DNA of 64,000 bases from assembly GCA_009377795.1 (NCBI GenBank), contig WHTJ01000001.1, positions 1 to 64,000 on the forward strand. Reading direction: 5' to 3'. The stretch's first letter is position 1, and each line of letters opens with the position of its first letter. This document shows, in pieces, positions 1 to 56,977 of this stretch. Both the position numbers and the translations under genes were made by a program. The stretch comes from Propionibacteriales bacterium. Its GTDB lineage: Bacteria; Actinomycetota; Actinomycetes; Propionibacteriales; Nocardioidaceae. The notes below the pieces were generated by a model. The model saw nothing but the letters and a program-made list of their open reading frames with translations, was not told the origin of the DNA and did no database searches.

Positions 1-183
1 TGGGCAGCCGACCTCTACAACCGAGCCCGCACCAGAGGACACGACCACCCCCACGCCGTGCGCATCCTCGCCCGCGCCTGGCTCTTCGTCATCTGGCACT
101 GCTGGCAAGACCACATCGCCTACGACCCCACCAAACACAACGCGCTCCAACGACTGCTCAACCCAAACCAGCAGGCGGCTTGA
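1..183 (+). mobile_element. C-terminal end of an IS110-like transposase (cut by window edge)
   Basis: Frame 1 is open from the first base to TGA at 181-183 and gives 60 residues. The segment contains HPHAVRILARAW, then VIWHCWQD and a YDPTKHNALQ tail. This resembles the C-terminus of IS110/IS1111-family DEDD transposases, which cut and join DNA without target-site duplications. The catalytic part lies outside the window. The ORF ends only a few codons before the surviving 3' part of a tadB gene, so the right end of the element should lie just after 183. Family assignment is from memory of the typical tail; another transposase class with a similar tail is possible. Confidence 0.65.
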
Positions 184-362
184 CACAGGGCTTCTCATTT
201 GTCGGCGAGGAGCTTGGTGGCGAGTACGGCGGCCTGGGCCGCGGTGAGTACATCGAGCCGCTCTACACCGATCCGATCGGCTGGGTCCTGGTCGCCGGTG
301 CGACCGTGTCCCTCCTCATAGGTGTCTTCGTGATGCGCAAGGTGATCAGGGTGGATGTGTGA
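184..362 (+). pseudogene. tadB: TadB-like pilus assembly protein, 3' remnant
   Basis: Only about the last 40-60 residues remain: an EPLYTDPIGWVL segment, one hydrophobic helix and an MRKVIRVDV end. This is the usual C-terminus of actinobacterial TadB-type type II/IV secretion F-domain proteins, inner-membrane platform proteins of the Flp/Tad pilus. The upstream part is replaced by the IS110-like transposase end, so the gene appears disrupted. The exact junction within about 184-245 cannot be set by eye. The stop TGA (360-362) overlaps the tadC start by one base, the usual tadB-tadC coupling. Confidence 0.7.
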
Positions 363-1292
363 TGAGCAACAGCACGGTGTTGACGGTTTCGCTCGGCGGT
401 CTATTCGTCGCGCTGCTCGCCGGGGTGATCGCGTTCGGCGCTCCGGCGTCGTCGCAGCGGGTGGCGGTCAACCGGTCGCTCGGGCTGGTCGGGACCTTGG
501 GCCGCCGCGAGGAGGAGAGGGCCGATCCCGGCTCGTTCTTCGACCGGGTCGTCGTACCTCTGTTGCATCGCGTCGCCGTGCTCGGTCGGCGGCTGTCCTC
601 GATGGGCTATTTCGGCTGGGTACATCGCGCCCTGGACCGGGCGGGCAACCCGCCGCGATGGAGGATCGACCGGATCTTCGGCGTCAAGGCCGCCGGACTG
701 CTGGGGCTCGGTGGCGCTCGGAATGCTGTACGGCTCGATGCTCGGTTTCGGCGGCGTCGTGGTCGTACCGCTGGCCGGCGCAGCCGTTGGCTTCTACGTG
801 CCGGATCTCCTGCTCTACAACGCCGGTGTCAAACGCCAAGACCAGATTCGCCGGTCCCTGGCCGAGGCGATGGACATGCTGACCGTCTGCGTTGAGGCCG
901 GGCTCGGCTTCGACGCCGCGCTCGCCCAGGTGGCCCGCAAGACCGACGGCCCGCTTGCCCGGGAGCTGTCCCGCGTGCTGCAGGAGATGCAGCTGGGGAC
1001 CGCCCGGCTGGAGGCCCTGCGCGCGCTGGGGGAACGCAGCACCGTGCCCGAGCTGCAGGCGTTCGTGTCGGCCATCCTGCAGTCCGACGGATTGGGCGTC
1101 CCGATCGCGGATGTCCTGCGCGAGCAGTCCCGGGAGATGCGGACCAAGCGACGGCAGCTCGCCGAGGAGAAGGCGCAGAAGATCCCGGTGAAGATCCTGT
1201 TCCCGATGCTGCTGTTCATCTTCCCGGCGCTGTTCGTCGTGGTGATCGGGCCGGGGGCGATCCAGATCTACCAGATGTTCGCCGGAGTATAG
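362..1292 (+). pseudogene. tadC: TadC-like pilus platform protein, frameshifted
   Basis: Translation starts at ATG 362 (MSNSTVLTVSLGG) and stays open in this frame through an N-terminal helix and linker to IFGVKAAGLLGL. The rest of the protein continues in the next frame from about 705: VALGMLYGSML, then the T2SSF domain with MDMLTVCVEAGLGFDAAL and a C-terminal membrane helix ending at 1292. Removing one G from the GGGG run at 703-706 restores one continuous TadC of about 309 residues. It is either a real +1 frameshift mutation or a homopolymer sequencing error. With tadB cut by an IS element, a decayed Tad locus is the simplest reading. Confidence 0.8.
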
Positions 1293-1300
1293 GTTCGGAC

Positions 1301-2170
1301 TCAGCCCTCGATGTGCGCGGTGACGAGCTCGGCGACCAGGTCGGGCCGGGTGCGCGGGAGCCAGTGGCCGGACGGCACGGTGTGGACGCGGAGGTTCGGC
1401 GCCCATTGCTCGACCTGCGTCTGCAGCGGCACGCCGACGTACCTGTCGCGGGTGGGCGCGATCACCTGGACCGGCACCGTCGTACGCCGTTCCTCCGGAC
1501 GCAGCAGACGCGGGATCATGTTCGCCCGGTAGAGCTGCACGCCGTACACGTAGTCGTCCACCGCGGCGGACGACGGCCGCGTCGAGCTCGGCCGGCGACG
1601 CCCGATCCTCGCGAGGACGATCCGTCCAACGCTGCGGAACACCAGCTCGGGAACGAACGGGATCTGGAAGAACCCGATGTACCAGGACATGCCCACCTGC
1701 TTGAGCAACTGGCGGGGGAGCGGGCCCTGGCCCCGGCCCCGGTTGCGCATGCGCAGGCGTAGGCCCGCATGGTCGAGACAGGGGCCCGAGATCGACGTGA
1801 AGGACGCGATCCGGCCGCGCAGTCGGTCGCCGGTGACGAAATGCCACCCCTGGATGGAGCCCCAGTCGTGCGCCAGCAGGTGCACGGGGCGGTCGGGGCT
1901 GGCCGCGTCGAGGACTGCCGCGCAGTCGGCCTCCAGCACGTCGAGCCGGTACGCCCTGCGCGGCCGTGGCTTGCTCGACTCCCCGGCGCCGCGGGTGTCG
2001 TAGGCCACCACGTGATAGCGGTCGCTCATCCGGTCGACGACGCCGTCCCACAGGCCCTTGTTGTCCGGGTAGCCGTGCAGGCATACCAGGGTGGGATTGG
2101 CCGGGTCGCCGGCGGTGCGTACGGCGAGGCGTACGCCGTCCGGGGCCACCACCTCGGTTGTGGCGGTCAT
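1301..2170 (-). CDS. Alpha/beta hydrolase (epoxide hydrolase/dehalogenase-like)
   Basis: 289 residues. The oxyanion-region motif HGYPDN (about residues 33-38) and the nucleophile elbow AHDWGS, in which Asp replaces the usual Ser, point to the epoxide hydrolase/haloalkane dehalogenase branch of the alpha/beta hydrolase fold. The C-terminal SGHWLPRTRPD supplies the expected catalytic His. There is no signal peptide, so it is probably cytosolic. ATG at 2170 overlaps the stop of the upstream enoyl-reductase-like gene by 4 bp (ATGA), so the two are translationally coupled and probably co-functional in modifying a hydrophobic substrate. The substrate cannot be inferred. Confidence 0.85.
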   Translation of the reverse strand: MTATTEVVAPDGVRLAVRTAGDPANPTLVCLHGYPDNKGLWDGVVDRMSDRYHVVAYDTRGAGESSKPRPRRAYRLDVLEADCAAVLDAASPDRPVHLLAHDWGSIQGWHFVTGDRLRGRIASFTSISGPCLDHAGLRLRMRNRGRGQGPLPRQLLKQVGMSWYIGFFQIPFVPELVFRSVGRIVLARIGRRRPSSTRPSSAAVDDYVYGVQLYRANMIPRLLRPEERRTTVPVQVIAPTRDRYVGVPLQTQVEQWAPNLRVHTVPSGHWLPRTRPDLVAELVTAHIEG

Positions 2171-4790: not shown

Positions 4791-5526
4791 CCGCCACACT
4801 CCCGAGGCGCCCACCCGCACCCAGCCGCTGGCACCGGGAGAACGCATCGACGCGCACCGCCACGACGACCACCAGATCATCTACGCGGGCTCCGGCGTCC
4901 TGGCCCTCACCACCGACGCTGGCACCTGGTTCGCCCCCGGCACCCGCGCCATCTGGGTGCCCGCCGGATGCGTCCACGCCCACCGCGCACACGGCCACCT
5001 CGACCTGCACCTGGTCGGCCTGCCCGCCGACACCAACCCACTGGGCCTGAACTCCCCGAACGTCCTGGCCGTCAGCCCCCTGCTGCGCGAACTGATCCTC
5101 GCCTACACCCACAGGCCCGGCGACGACACCCCCGAGCGGCAACGCCTGCGCGCCGTCCTCCTCGACCAGCTACGCGCCTCCCCGCAACAGCCAGTCCAGC
5201 TGCCCACTCCCGCCGACCCTCGCCTCACGGTCGTCTGCGACCTGTTGCACCGTGACCCCGCCGACCCGCGCACCCTGGCTCAACTGGGCAGGGCCACCGG
5301 AGCCGGCGAGCGAACCCTCAGCCGCCTCTTTCGCCGCGACCTGGGCATGACCTTCCCGCAGTGGCGCACCCAGCTACGCCTGTACCACGCCCTGCGCATG
5401 CTGGCCGACGACACACCGGTGACCACCGTCGCCCATCGCTGCGGCTGGTCGTCCACCAGCGCCTTCATCGACGTCTTCCGCCGGGCCTTCGGCTACACAC
5501 CCGGCACCCACAACCGACGACCCTGA
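4780..5526 (+). CDS. AraC-family transcriptional regulator
   Basis: 248 residues. The N-terminal cupin sensor (HRHDDHQIIYAGSGVLAL, then WFAPGTRAIWVPAG) is followed by two C-terminal helix-turn-helix units: LAQLGRATGAGERTLSRLFR and VTTVAHRCGWSSTSAFIDVFRR, ending in the typical FGYTPGTHNRR. This is the standard layout of small cupin-AraC regulators that control an adjacent exporter. It is divergent from the MFS gene with starts only 3 bp apart, so one bound regulator would affect both promoters. A leaderless start at ATG 4780 is favoured by the -10 spacing. Confidence 0.9.
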   Translation: MPDIRHTPEAPTRTQPLAPGERIDAHRHDDHQIIYAGSGVLALTTDAGTWFAPGTRAIWVPAGCVHAHRAHGHLDLHLVGLPADTNPLGLNSPNVLAVSPLLRELILAYTHRPGDDTPERQRLRAVLLDQLRASPQQPVQLPTPADPRLTVVCDLLHRDPADPRTLAQLGRATGAGERTLSRLFRRDLGMTFPQWRTQLRLYHALRMLADDTPVTTVAHRCGWSSTSAFIDVFRRAFGYTPGTHNRRP

Positions 5527-5616
5527 ACCATTCGTGCCCGGACTTCCGCCCGCTCTCGGCCGACCGCCGGGAGTGGCGGCTTTCGACCGCCGACCGGCTG
5601 TGGCAGCATCGCGCGG

Positions 5617-8799
<3,183 letters not shown>

Positions 8800-50767: not shown

Positions 50768-50801
50768 CAACAAATCAGCCTGGGCTTCTAGCAACAAATC
50801 A
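50761..50801. repeat. Tandem duplication at the 3' end of era
   Basis: CTTCTAGCAACAAATCA occurs at 50761-50777, where it includes the era stop TAG, and again at 50785-50801, a period of 24 bp. The second copy overlaps the last codons of the convergent lipoprotein gene. A recent slippage duplication is likely. Confidence 0.8.
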
Positions 50802-51632
50802 ACGGGTCATACCGGGGAGCCCCTGTCCCCGTGCGGCGACCGCCCAGCACAGCGCCTCCCGGCTGCCGAACCTCCGCCACCCGAGCGCGGTGGGCACGGT
50901 GAGGTATCCTCTCGCGGCCTCGTCGACCGGCCTGCTCGCTCGCCGGCACCACGGCGTGTGCTCGGCCAGTAGCCGAGACCTGCCGGGGTAGCGGGCACCG
51001 GCGCCGCCCAGCGTCCGCACCTGAGTCACGTGCTCCGCGACATGCGGGCGTCCGCAGTCCACGAAGTCCTGTGACTGCATCCTCCGCGGTCTCGTTCCGA
51101 GACACGCGCGGTACGAGACCGGCGTGCGTCCCCGCAGGACGCCGCGCAGGCTCCCGGTCCGCTCCACCGCGAACTGCGCGCCGGTGTCCTGCATGACGCC
51201 GACGTCACACCGCACCCATGCGTCCTCGTCGGACTCCTTCGGCGGCGGGCCGAAGTAGAAGACCGCGATCGTGGTCGGATAGAACGTGCCGCCCAAGAAC
51301 TCCGTGGCCTCCTCGTTGCAGTCACGCCCATACCGCGGCAGGTTCCTCCGGGTCGGCCGCGCCGGGACGTCGAGTACGGCGAACGTCTCCAGCGTGTGGG
51401 GTTGTTCGCAGCTGGTCGGCCTCGTCGGGTCGTAGGTCTTGACCAGCAACAGGTCGGTGGTCGCGAAGCAGTCACCGATCGACGGACGACCGGAGGATCG
51501 CACGGCCGGCCGGTCGTCTTCACCGGGCTCCGCCGAGCGTTCCTCATTGGGGTCGGCGTCGACAAGGTCCGTCGCGGAGGCGCAGGCCGCGAGCCCGATC
51601 ACGAGTACGACGAGTGTCGCGGCGATCCGCAC
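50799..51632 (-). CDS. Septum-formation-family lipoprotein
   Basis: 277 residues from GTG 51632. The signal peptide ends in lipobox LAAC (Cys17). The mature part has paired domains with DCFATTDLLLV, SCEQPHTLETFAVLDVP, WVRCDVGVM and a second half with VDCGRPHVAEHVTQV and ALCWAV. The repeated Cys-rich 'septum formation' domain of actinobacteria has the pattern of conserved Cys-Pro-His near each start (QPHTLETF, RPHVAEHV). Surface-anchored, function unknown. A paralogue follows 4 bp upstream (51637-52548). Convergent with era. Confidence 0.75.
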   Translation of the reverse strand: MRIAATLVVLVIGLAACASATDLVDADPNEERSAEPGEDDRPAVRSSGRPSIGDCFATTDLLLVKTYDPTRPTSCEQPHTLETFAVLDVPARPTRRNLPRYGRDCNEEATEFLGGTFYPTTIAVFYFGPPPKESDEDAWVRCDVGVMQDTGAQFAVERTGSLRGVLRGRTPVSYRACLGTRPRRMQSQDFVDCGRPHVAEHVTQVRTLGGAGARYPGRSRLLAEHTPWCRRASRPVDEAARGYLTVPTALGWRRFGSREALCWAVAARGQGLPGMTR

Positions 51633-51636
51633 CGTG

Positions 51637-52548
51637 CTACTGCCTGGTCTGCGCCCAGCAGAGGCCGTATCGGGTGCCGCTCTCCCATGAGGCCTTGTCG
51701 AAGGGGATCGCGTTGAAGTTCACCTGCCGATCGATTCCCGCACGCCGCACCCAGGCCCGCACCTTCGGCTGGCAGCGGTTCCGGCCGCGTTCTTGCAGCT
51801 GCGCGACACCGGGCCAGCGTTCGGCCCTCCTGCCCGCGACGAAGGTGTCCACGGCACGCCAGTTGTGCGGCTTGGCACAGATGATCGCGCGGAACGCGTT
51901 GCGGCCCGGATCGACGTTGCCGCAACGGCCCACGCGGTCACGGATCCTGGGGTCCTTCATGCCGCCCTTCAGCCCGTTCGGCAGCCGGGAGAGCGCCCGC
52001 TTGCCGCCATCGTCGACCGCGTACGCGAAGACGTCGCAGCGCACCCAGGGCGCGCCCAGCCGGAACTGCCTGCGGTCCGGCAGGAAGTACTCCGTATCCA
52101 GCATCGTGAGTGCCAGCTCGTGGTCGGTGCCCGCGATCCAGGTGCGGAACGTGGTGTCACACCCGCGACGGGCGGCGTTCTGAACCCGCTTCCGGGCCGG
52201 AGAGAGCGTGCCCTTCTTCAGGATCCTCGGCGGGAGTTTGCCGACGTCGTACGTGTACACGGTGTGCGGTTTGCGGCAGCCGACGACCGGGCTGTCGTCC
52301 ACCACCGTGGCGAGATCGTCGATGCTCAGCCGCCGGCAGCCGGTGTCCGGTGCCGGGTCGGGCTCCGGCGGCGGCTCGGGCTCGCGCTCGGGCTGCGGCT
52401 CCGGGCGGGGTGCTGTCGTCTCCTGCTCGAGCGTCCGGGCGGACTCGGCGAGCTCGGCGGCCGCGGCGCAACCGGTCAGGACGACGAACGCCGTGACACC
52501 CGTCGCGACGCACTTCACCTTGCGAAGGCCCCCCGAAGGCCGCGACAC
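51637..52548 (-). CDS. Septum-formation-family lipoprotein, paralogue
   Basis: 303 residues from GTG 52548. Lipobox LTGC follows a hydrophobic segment. After a Pro/Glu/Asp-rich linker (PEPQPEREPEPPPEPDPAP), two Cys-containing domains follow, each with a CxKPH or KPHNWRAVDTF type motif (GCRKPHTVYTYDV and CAKPHNWRAVDTFV), plus WVRCDVFAYAV and LCWAQ at the end. The shared pattern with 50799-51632 shows a tandem duplication. Cell-surface protein, probably disulfide-bonded; function unknown. The two are cotranscribed (4-bp gap). Confidence 0.75.
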   Translation of the reverse strand: MSRPSGGLRKVKCVATGVTAFVVLTGCAAAAELAESARTLEQETTAPRPEPQPEREPEPPPEPDPAPDTGCRRLSIDDLATVVDDSPVVGCRKPHTVYTYDVGKLPPRILKKGTLSPARKRVQNAARRGCDTTFRTWIAGTDHELALTMLDTEYFLPDRRQFRLGAPWVRCDVFAYAVDDGGKRALSRLPNGLKGGMKDPRIRDRVGRCGNVDPGRNAFRAIICAKPHNWRAVDTFVAGRRAERWPGVAQLQERGRNRCQPKVRAWVRRAGIDRQVNFNAIPFDKASWESGTRYGLCWAQTRQ

Positions 52549-52650: not shown

Positions 52651-53976
52651 TTACGAGCCGCTGGACAGCACGAGGTCGACCAGTGCCCTGAGGTCGGGCG
52701 TCAGGTCGTGCTCGTACAGCGTGACGACCCGTCCGTCGACGTCGATCGCGTAGGCGTACCCGTCCGGCCGAGGGGTGCTGCTGTGTTCCACGGTGTCGAG
52801 GTCGATCCCGGCCAGCAGCTCGTCGATCTCCCTCCCGTTGGGCGCGGTGCCGGTGTCCAGGCTGCAGTCGACGGGTATGCCGGCGAAGCCGCCGGTACGC
52901 CGTACCGCGACCCGATGGCCGCCGGGCGAGGGGGCCGGCGCGCCCACCACCTCGACGCCCACCCCGCTCCAGGCGTCGCGCACCGCCCGCGCCTCCGTGG
53001 AGTCCGGCCCGAAGAGCTGCTCCGCGACCTGGAGCGTGAGCTCGGCGAACCGGGCGAAGTCGGCGTCGGCCTCGAGCCGGGGATCGGTCAGTGTGGCGTA
53101 CCAGATCCATCCGGCCTGTTCCCAGGCATGGCCGCCGATCCCGGTGGCCGCGAGATGGAACGCGCGGTTCGGGATGCCCGAGTTGATGTGTACGCCCCCG
53201 TTGTCCTCCTCGGTCTCGACGTAGTCGTCCATGTGGCCGGGCTGCGGGTCCGTGCCGATCAGGGGGTCGTCGTACGCCGTTCCCGGCTCCTTCATCGAGC
53301 GCAGCGCCGTCGCGTTGACGTTCTCCGTGAACAGCCCCTCGCCGATCAGCCAGGAGGCCTCGTCGGCGGTCTCGTCGTTGGCCTTCTGCACGGCGAGCAC
53401 CGCGAACACGTCCGAGACGCTCTCGTTGAGCGCGCCGGACTGGCCCTCGTAGAGCAGACCCGCGGTGTGCTCGGTGACCGCGTGGGTGAACTCGTGGACC
53501 ACGACGTCGGGTGCCTTGGTGAAGCGCTGGAAGATCCGCCCGTCCCCGTCGCCGAAGACCAGCTGCTCGCCGTCCCAGAACGCGTTGGCGTAGTTGCGCT
53601 CGTAGTGCACGGTCGCACTGATCCGGTGGCCGTCGCCGTCGTACGAGTCGCGCTCGTAGTCCTCGCGGAACAGCGTCCACGCCAGTCCGGATCCGTCGTA
53701 CGCCTCGTCGACCGCCTCGTCCCCGGTCGGGTCGTCGCCCTCGGCACGCACGAGCTCGCCGGGAAGGTCACGGGTGTTGCGGGCATCGTGGATCGCGCGA
53801 TCGGGACGGTCGCCCTGGGTCGCTCCGGATGGCCTGCTCCCGCGTTGTCGGCGACGGGTGCGGATGGCGTCGTCGAGCTCCAGGGTGCTTCGTGCGTAGC
53901 CGCGCACCTCGTCGTCGTCGGTCTGCTCGGCGAGGCGGGAGAGGATGAACGGCGGAATGATGTGACAACGGGTCAT
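52651..53976 (-). CDS. M4 metalloprotease fused to an emfourin-like inhibitor domain
   Basis: 441 residues from ATG 53976. The catalytic domain is protealysin-like: VVVHEFTHAVTEH (HEFTH 161-165), Glu185 in GALNESVSD as third zinc ligand and His263 in NGGVHINSGIPN. No signal peptide; the N-terminus MTRCHIIPPFIL resembles the short propeptide of intracellular protealysins. The last about 88 residues (354-441: RVAVRRTGGFAGIPVDC, DELLAGIDLD, VDGRVVTLYEHDLTPDLRALVDL) look like emfourin, the inhibitor usually encoded as a separate gene next to protealysins. The fusion would give a self-inhibited enzyme. Confidence 0.85.
   Translation of the reverse strand: MTRCHIIPPFILSRLAEQTDDDEVRGYARSTLELDDAIRTRRRQRGSRPSGATQGDRPDRAIHDARNTRDLPGELVRAEGDDPTGDEAVDEAYDGSGLAWTLFREDYERDSYDGDGHRISATVHYERNYANAFWDGEQLVFGDGDGRIFQRFTKAPDVVVHEFTHAVTEHTAGLLYEGQSGALNESVSDVFAVLAVQKANDETADEASWLIGEGLFTENVNATALRSMKEPGTAYDDPLIGTDPQPGHMDDYVETEEDNGGVHINSGIPNRAFHLAATGIGGHAWEQAGWIWYATLTDPRLEADADFARFAELTLQVAEQLFGPDSTEARAVRDAWSGVGVEVVGAPAPSPGGHRVAVRRTGGFAGIPVDCSLDTGTAPNGREIDELLAGIDLDTVEHSSTPRPDGYAYAIDVDGRVVTLYEHDLTPDLRALVDLVLSSGS

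Positions 53977-54031: not shown

Positions 54032-56977
<2,946 letters not shown>

Follow-up and report, generated by a model that had tools for sequence, protein, structure and literature searches.

Protealysin of Serratia proteamaculans is encoded in a two-gene operon with emfourin (M4in), and this pair is among the closest described systems to the gene reported here. Emfourin in its free form binds to the active-site region of protealysin in a 1:1 ratio, and deletion of emfourin in Serratia increased proteolysis and decreased viability; its authors suggested a toxin-immunity role for the pair (PMC9505478). Streptomyces and Actinomadura also have protease and emfourin gene pairs, in which a stop codon and short spacer, or an overlap, keep the products as two proteins; the Streptomyces pairs often lie beside leuA in divergent orientation and are mostly in frame. 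The N-terminal inhibitory propeptides of thermolysin and LasB provide the zymogen logic in which a domain of the same chain holds the enzyme off. IMPI and sermetstatin are likewise protein inhibitors of metalloproteases.

In a 64,000-nucleotide stretch of a Propionibacteriales genome (contig WHTJ01000001.1; hereafter the window), protease and inhibitor are joined in one gene. The encoded protein resembles the Serratia pair in having a protealysin-type propeptide, an M4 domain, an emfourin-family inhibitor and no visible signal peptide, but its inhibitor has low sequence identity to Serratia emfourin, and both parts reside on a single chain and hence in a fixed ratio, whereas emfourin of Serratia is a separate protein that acts in trans. 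It shares the invariant inhibitor residues of the Streptomyces and Actinomadura pairs. Relative to thermolysin and LasB it adds a second, C-terminal inhibitor domain of an unrelated family. In contrast, IMPI and sermetstatin are separate proteins to which no sequence relation was found, and Foldseek gave only a weak, non-significant fold match to sermetstatin (E 0.37). We found no published description of such a fusion in a search that lacked the two primary emfourin papers, and thus priority is uncertain.

Domain make-up of the fused protein

The fused gene, a protealysin-like M4 protease with a C-terminal emfourin domain, occupies positions 52651..53976 of the minus strand (as do all features of the protein given below) and is a single open reading frame of 441 codons with an ATG start and no internal stops. 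Hence, the separate inhibitor gene that characterizes the protealysin-emfourin operon is not present here. The M4 catalytic domain (residues about 52-341; 52954..53823) was assigned by Pfam and phmmer, with Peptidase_M4 matching residues 71-169 at 90.7 bits and Peptidase_M4_C matching residues 172-341 at 182.3 bits, both above the curated cut-offs. The zinc-binding and catalytic HEFTH motif is found at residues 161-165 (53482..53496) and alignment with thermolysin gives E185 (53422..53424) as the third zinc ligand. In 31 fused homologues there is no variation at H161, E162, H165, Y176, E185, R226 or H263, positions that correspond in the alignment to the established zinc and catalytic residues of thermolysin, so the catalytic site looks intact, and the M4 domain with its zinc and catalytic residues is that of a protealysin-like protease. 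Among solved sequences the closest is the protealysin precursor 2vqx, which phmmer matched over residues 2-341 (E 3.8e-106), ahead of the thermolysins. When the N-terminus (MTRCHIIPPFILSRL) was read directly by eye, no signal peptide pattern was seen. An earlier sequence-only reading of the window had proposed an intact, apparently cytosolic M4 protease fused to an emfourin-like tail, and the intact protease of that proposal was borne out, as were its coordinates and residue range. The gene encodes the sole M4 protease and contains the sole emfourin found in the genome (assembly about 97% complete).

The same reading overlooked a third domain. Residues 1 to about 51 (53824..53976) form a protealysin-type propeptide, as judged from the PLN_propep profile and the 2vqx match, the maturation boundary being placed by alignment. 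The Pfam score (25.8 bits at residues 4-33) falls just under the cut-off of 28.1, but the segment has the short length and PP(x)L-type motif of protealysin-like propeptides, and the two prolines of its conserved PP motif, P8 and P9, are invariant in the 31-member fused alignment. In addition, the AlphaFold model of the full chain covers 2vqx over its length with a TM of 0.96 (Foldseek), with the propeptide region placed as it is in that precursor. There, in the solved structure, the propeptide is an inhibitory module. The same type of propeptide is on the window chain, so that the tail would come as a second lock, and the protein most likely carries two putative locks on one active site. A cysteine, C4, lies a few residues before the PP motif (window 53950-53976, protein residues 1-9); the majority of the actinobacterial enzymes of this kind have a cysteine there, the Serratia precursor segment compared does not, and a cysteine switch is a candidate role only.

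The catalytic domain is followed by a Pro/Gly/Ala-rich linker of 14 residues, EVVGAPAPSPGGHR (52912..52953), and then by the emfourin domain (residues 354-441; 52654..52917), which was assigned by Pfam, by profiles and from the model. The tail scored 36.5 bits against Emfourin (PF20242; cut-off 27) over residues 358-436, which bears out its earlier identification as emfourin-like, and each of the 31 sequences in the fused alignment (A1) matched Emfourin independently, which excludes chance for the tail of the window protein. In a larger alignment of emfourin domains (56 fused, 83 encoded near a protease and 28 solo), R360, G362, G363 and G366 were present in 100% of the fused and in 93-100% of the free domains, D405 in 100% of fused, adjacent and solo domains, and Y409 in 96-98% across the sets (98% in the fused). 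The residues that are fixed throughout the family are therefore present in the window tail, as the invariant loop R360-T-G-G-F-A-G366 (RxGGFxG; 52879..52899) and the invariant aspartate D405 (52762..52764), both picked out by conservation. We infer from this pattern that the RxGGFxG loop and the D405 loop would make up the inhibitory surface; the Serratia inhibitor is said to use two loops, one of which has an aspartate that binds the zinc.

Similarity to the solved Serratia inhibitor, 6zyg, is distant. A profile of 54 emfourin domains found 6zyg weakly (E 0.21), hhalign against a 72-residue part of 6zyg gave a probability of 61% (E 8e-5), and a phmmer search of the PDB with the tail alone gave no usable match. 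The top match of the 54-domain profile was a designed repeat protein, which we rejected as spurious because it was made of eight weak repeats. Nor was 6zyg among the best 50 Foldseek matches listed for the model, a ranking that is based on the whole chain.

Purifying selection acts on the tail. The dN/dS values of 13 informative close pairs were 0.13-0.53 for the tail and 0.17-0.33 for the protease domain, the tail being the faster evolving. This faster change, together with the weak similarity to Serratia emfourin, could be taken to mean that the tail is no longer inhibitory and now functions in substrate recruitment, localization or stability. We consider such a loss of inhibition quite unlikely, as fused and free forms have their invariant residues in common, which would not be expected of a relaxed inhibitory surface.

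Distribution and origin of the fused form

Comparison of homologues showed that the fusion is not a curiosity of one genome but is widespread in several actinobacterial families. Fused genes are found in Nocardioidaceae, Propionibacteriaceae, Intrasporangiaceae, Cellulomonadaceae and two further families (f11 and f110). An assembly artefact that joined two genes might be imagined given that in split relatives the genes are parted by only a single stop codon or an overlap of 4 nt, but the chance of this is negligible: recurrence refutes it, with more than 50 distinct fused homologues in independent assemblies that include single-contig chromosomes. Hence, the fusion is real and a fairly common form in which the protealysin-emfourin pair occurs. 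Within the order of the window, 73 of 198 genomes gave an emfourin match with Pfam, each of them exactly one. The Pfam threshold misses some fused emfourins; seven more fused genes (L187, L188, L189, L191, L192, L193 and L194) turned up in genomes from this order for which Pfam had given no match. A search of plasmids did not find a fused copy. The presence in several families of emfourin-family domains tied to their own protease on one chain supports a functional pairing across Actinomycetota, beyond Serratia.

The first reading took emfourin to be, as a rule, a separate gene next to that of the protease, and this is the case in most of the other lineages compared. Two separate genes are kept in Streptomyces, Thermomonosporaceae, Arthrobacter, Leifsonia, Nostoc and the small Nocardioidaceae genomes of genus g2, and in Streptomyces, Actinomadura and some Nocardioidaceae the protease and inhibitor genes are adjacent or overlapping. 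The Kribbella-like genomes (g8) have a solo emfourin about 9 kb from an M4 gene with a long propeptide (for example, L199:11347-11680 and L200:11137-11785), a spacing taken from two loci that were read and from match coordinates in several genomes; these genomes also have protealysin-like proteases without an adjoining emfourin.

In most Streptomyces the stop of the protease gene and the start of the inhibitor gene are in the same frame and are separated by a spacer of mostly 20-35 nt. The fused gene would have arisen from such a protealysin-emfourin two-gene pair when the stop that separates its genes was lost. The Streptomyces spacer often holds a conserved CGTACTAGACA (L106:5036-5060, with the same placement in most of the loci L110-L165), which from its sequence has the look of an element for regulation or ribosome loading.

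A tree of 126 protease domains required three changes of the fused label. When the 51 fused rows were held as one group the likelihood was above that of the free quick tree (p-AU 0.775), and thus the data are compatible with a single origin for the main fused set. The free quick tree scattered the fused rows but, given the higher likelihood of the constrained tree, it gives no ground for a claim of several origins. A wider tree required seven changes, of which at least four were forced by starred branches; in it L237 and L209, which belong to one genus, differ and L229 lies among split genes. One gene inside the fused group, L077, is split again with a GTGA overlap. Gains and splits have therefore occurred since the origin of the main fused set, and the re-split gene argues that the inhibitor domain still works alone, contrary to the view that the tail has lost its inhibitory role.

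Proposed control of the active site

We infer that the window gene encodes a latent intracellular protealysin-like protease that is inhibited by its tail, in cis, with two locks that act in order and a release step. In the precursor the N-terminal propeptide would fold over the cleft, and once the propeptide was gone the C-terminal emfourin domain, carried on a flexible linker, would fill the cleft in its place. The tethered tail would thereby hold the enzyme inactive, in a ratio fixed at 1:1, and activity would require that the tail be displaced or cut off. As the genome has only this M4 protease and only this emfourin, the only M4 target of the tail encoded there is its own enzyme. Action of the tail on itself is favored by the flexible linker and by the lack of another M4 target in the genome, and we think it probable that the fused emfourin tail blocks its own active site in cis, such that the enzyme is latent.

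AlphaFold gave confident models of the full chain (mean pLDDT 93.3, pTM 0.85) and of residues 52-441, from which the propeptide had been removed (mean pLDDT 95.0, pTM 0.84), although pLDDT and pTM alone do not place the tail relative to the cleft. The tail was modelled at block pLDDT values of 81-96 and was good save for the last residue. As the pTM was the same with and without the propeptide, there was no sign of tight docking of the tail in the freed cleft. This would fit inhibition in trans, in which the emfourin domain of a second molecule sits in the cleft, so that the dimer is inactive, or in which a tail set free shields the cell from active enzyme, and the fusion serves mainly to fix a 1:1 dose. 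Free emfourin does act in trans (PMC9505478), and the shortest linkers, 7 residues when measured between HMM boundaries, may hinder reach in cis. However, the linkers of 56 fused matches range from 7 to 86 residues, mostly 14-40, with 73% of positions Pro, Gly, Ala, Ser or Thr (HMM boundaries), and hence have no fixed geometry, and a tethered inhibitor is present at high local concentration. We therefore regard action in trans as unlikely and retain inhibition of the enzyme by its own tail as the preferred reading.

A broader proposal, which we advance only tentatively, is that the propeptide and then the emfourin domain hold the one active site in turn, that cutting or displacement of the tail is under the control of a signal and that these proteins are intracellular proteases triggered by stress or death, not toxins with attached immunity. 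Two genera contain both fused and split forms (L077 versus L009 in g4 and L237 versus L244 in g334), which offer natural material for comparing what the fusion does. With natural fused, overlapping and split versions in one genus, the question is directly testable, and a quenched peptide substrate has been described for protealysin (PMC6778150).

Gene neighborhood

A GNAT acetyltransferase gene (54032..55129, minus strand) lies 55 bp upstream of the protease gene on the same strand, and is followed by leuA (2-isopropylmalate synthase; 54890..56977, plus strand), the ORF of which is over-long at its 5' end. Just downstream of the protease gene are two adjacent, divergent genes of the Septum_form family (50799-51632 and 51637-52548, minus strand). 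leuA is a common neighbor of the Streptomyces split pair: many of these pairs are divergent beside leuA, and the window gene is likewise so, with the GNAT gene between.

The pairing of a protease with an inhibitor, and the immunity proposal made for Serratia (PMC9505478), raise the alternative that the protein is an interbacterial toxin with an attached immunity domain, the tail guarding the producer and being stripped on delivery. This seems very improbable. The protein has no visible secretion signal, the neighbors are leuA, GNAT and Septum_form genes rather than secretion genes, and an immunity domain fused to the toxin would be delivered along with it, which favors self-regulation in these bacteria. 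An inhibitor fused to its enzyme is hard to square with a toxin-immunity role for protealysin and suggests that the enzyme regulates itself.

In another genome of the order (L091) an orphan emfourin gene (5421-5678, plus strand) has no adjoining M4 protease, and its neighbors are those of the window gene: leuA (55-1935, minus strand), GNAT (5697-6719) and Septum_form (6791-7636). The protease may have been lost from this locus, or moved, with retention of the inhibitor.
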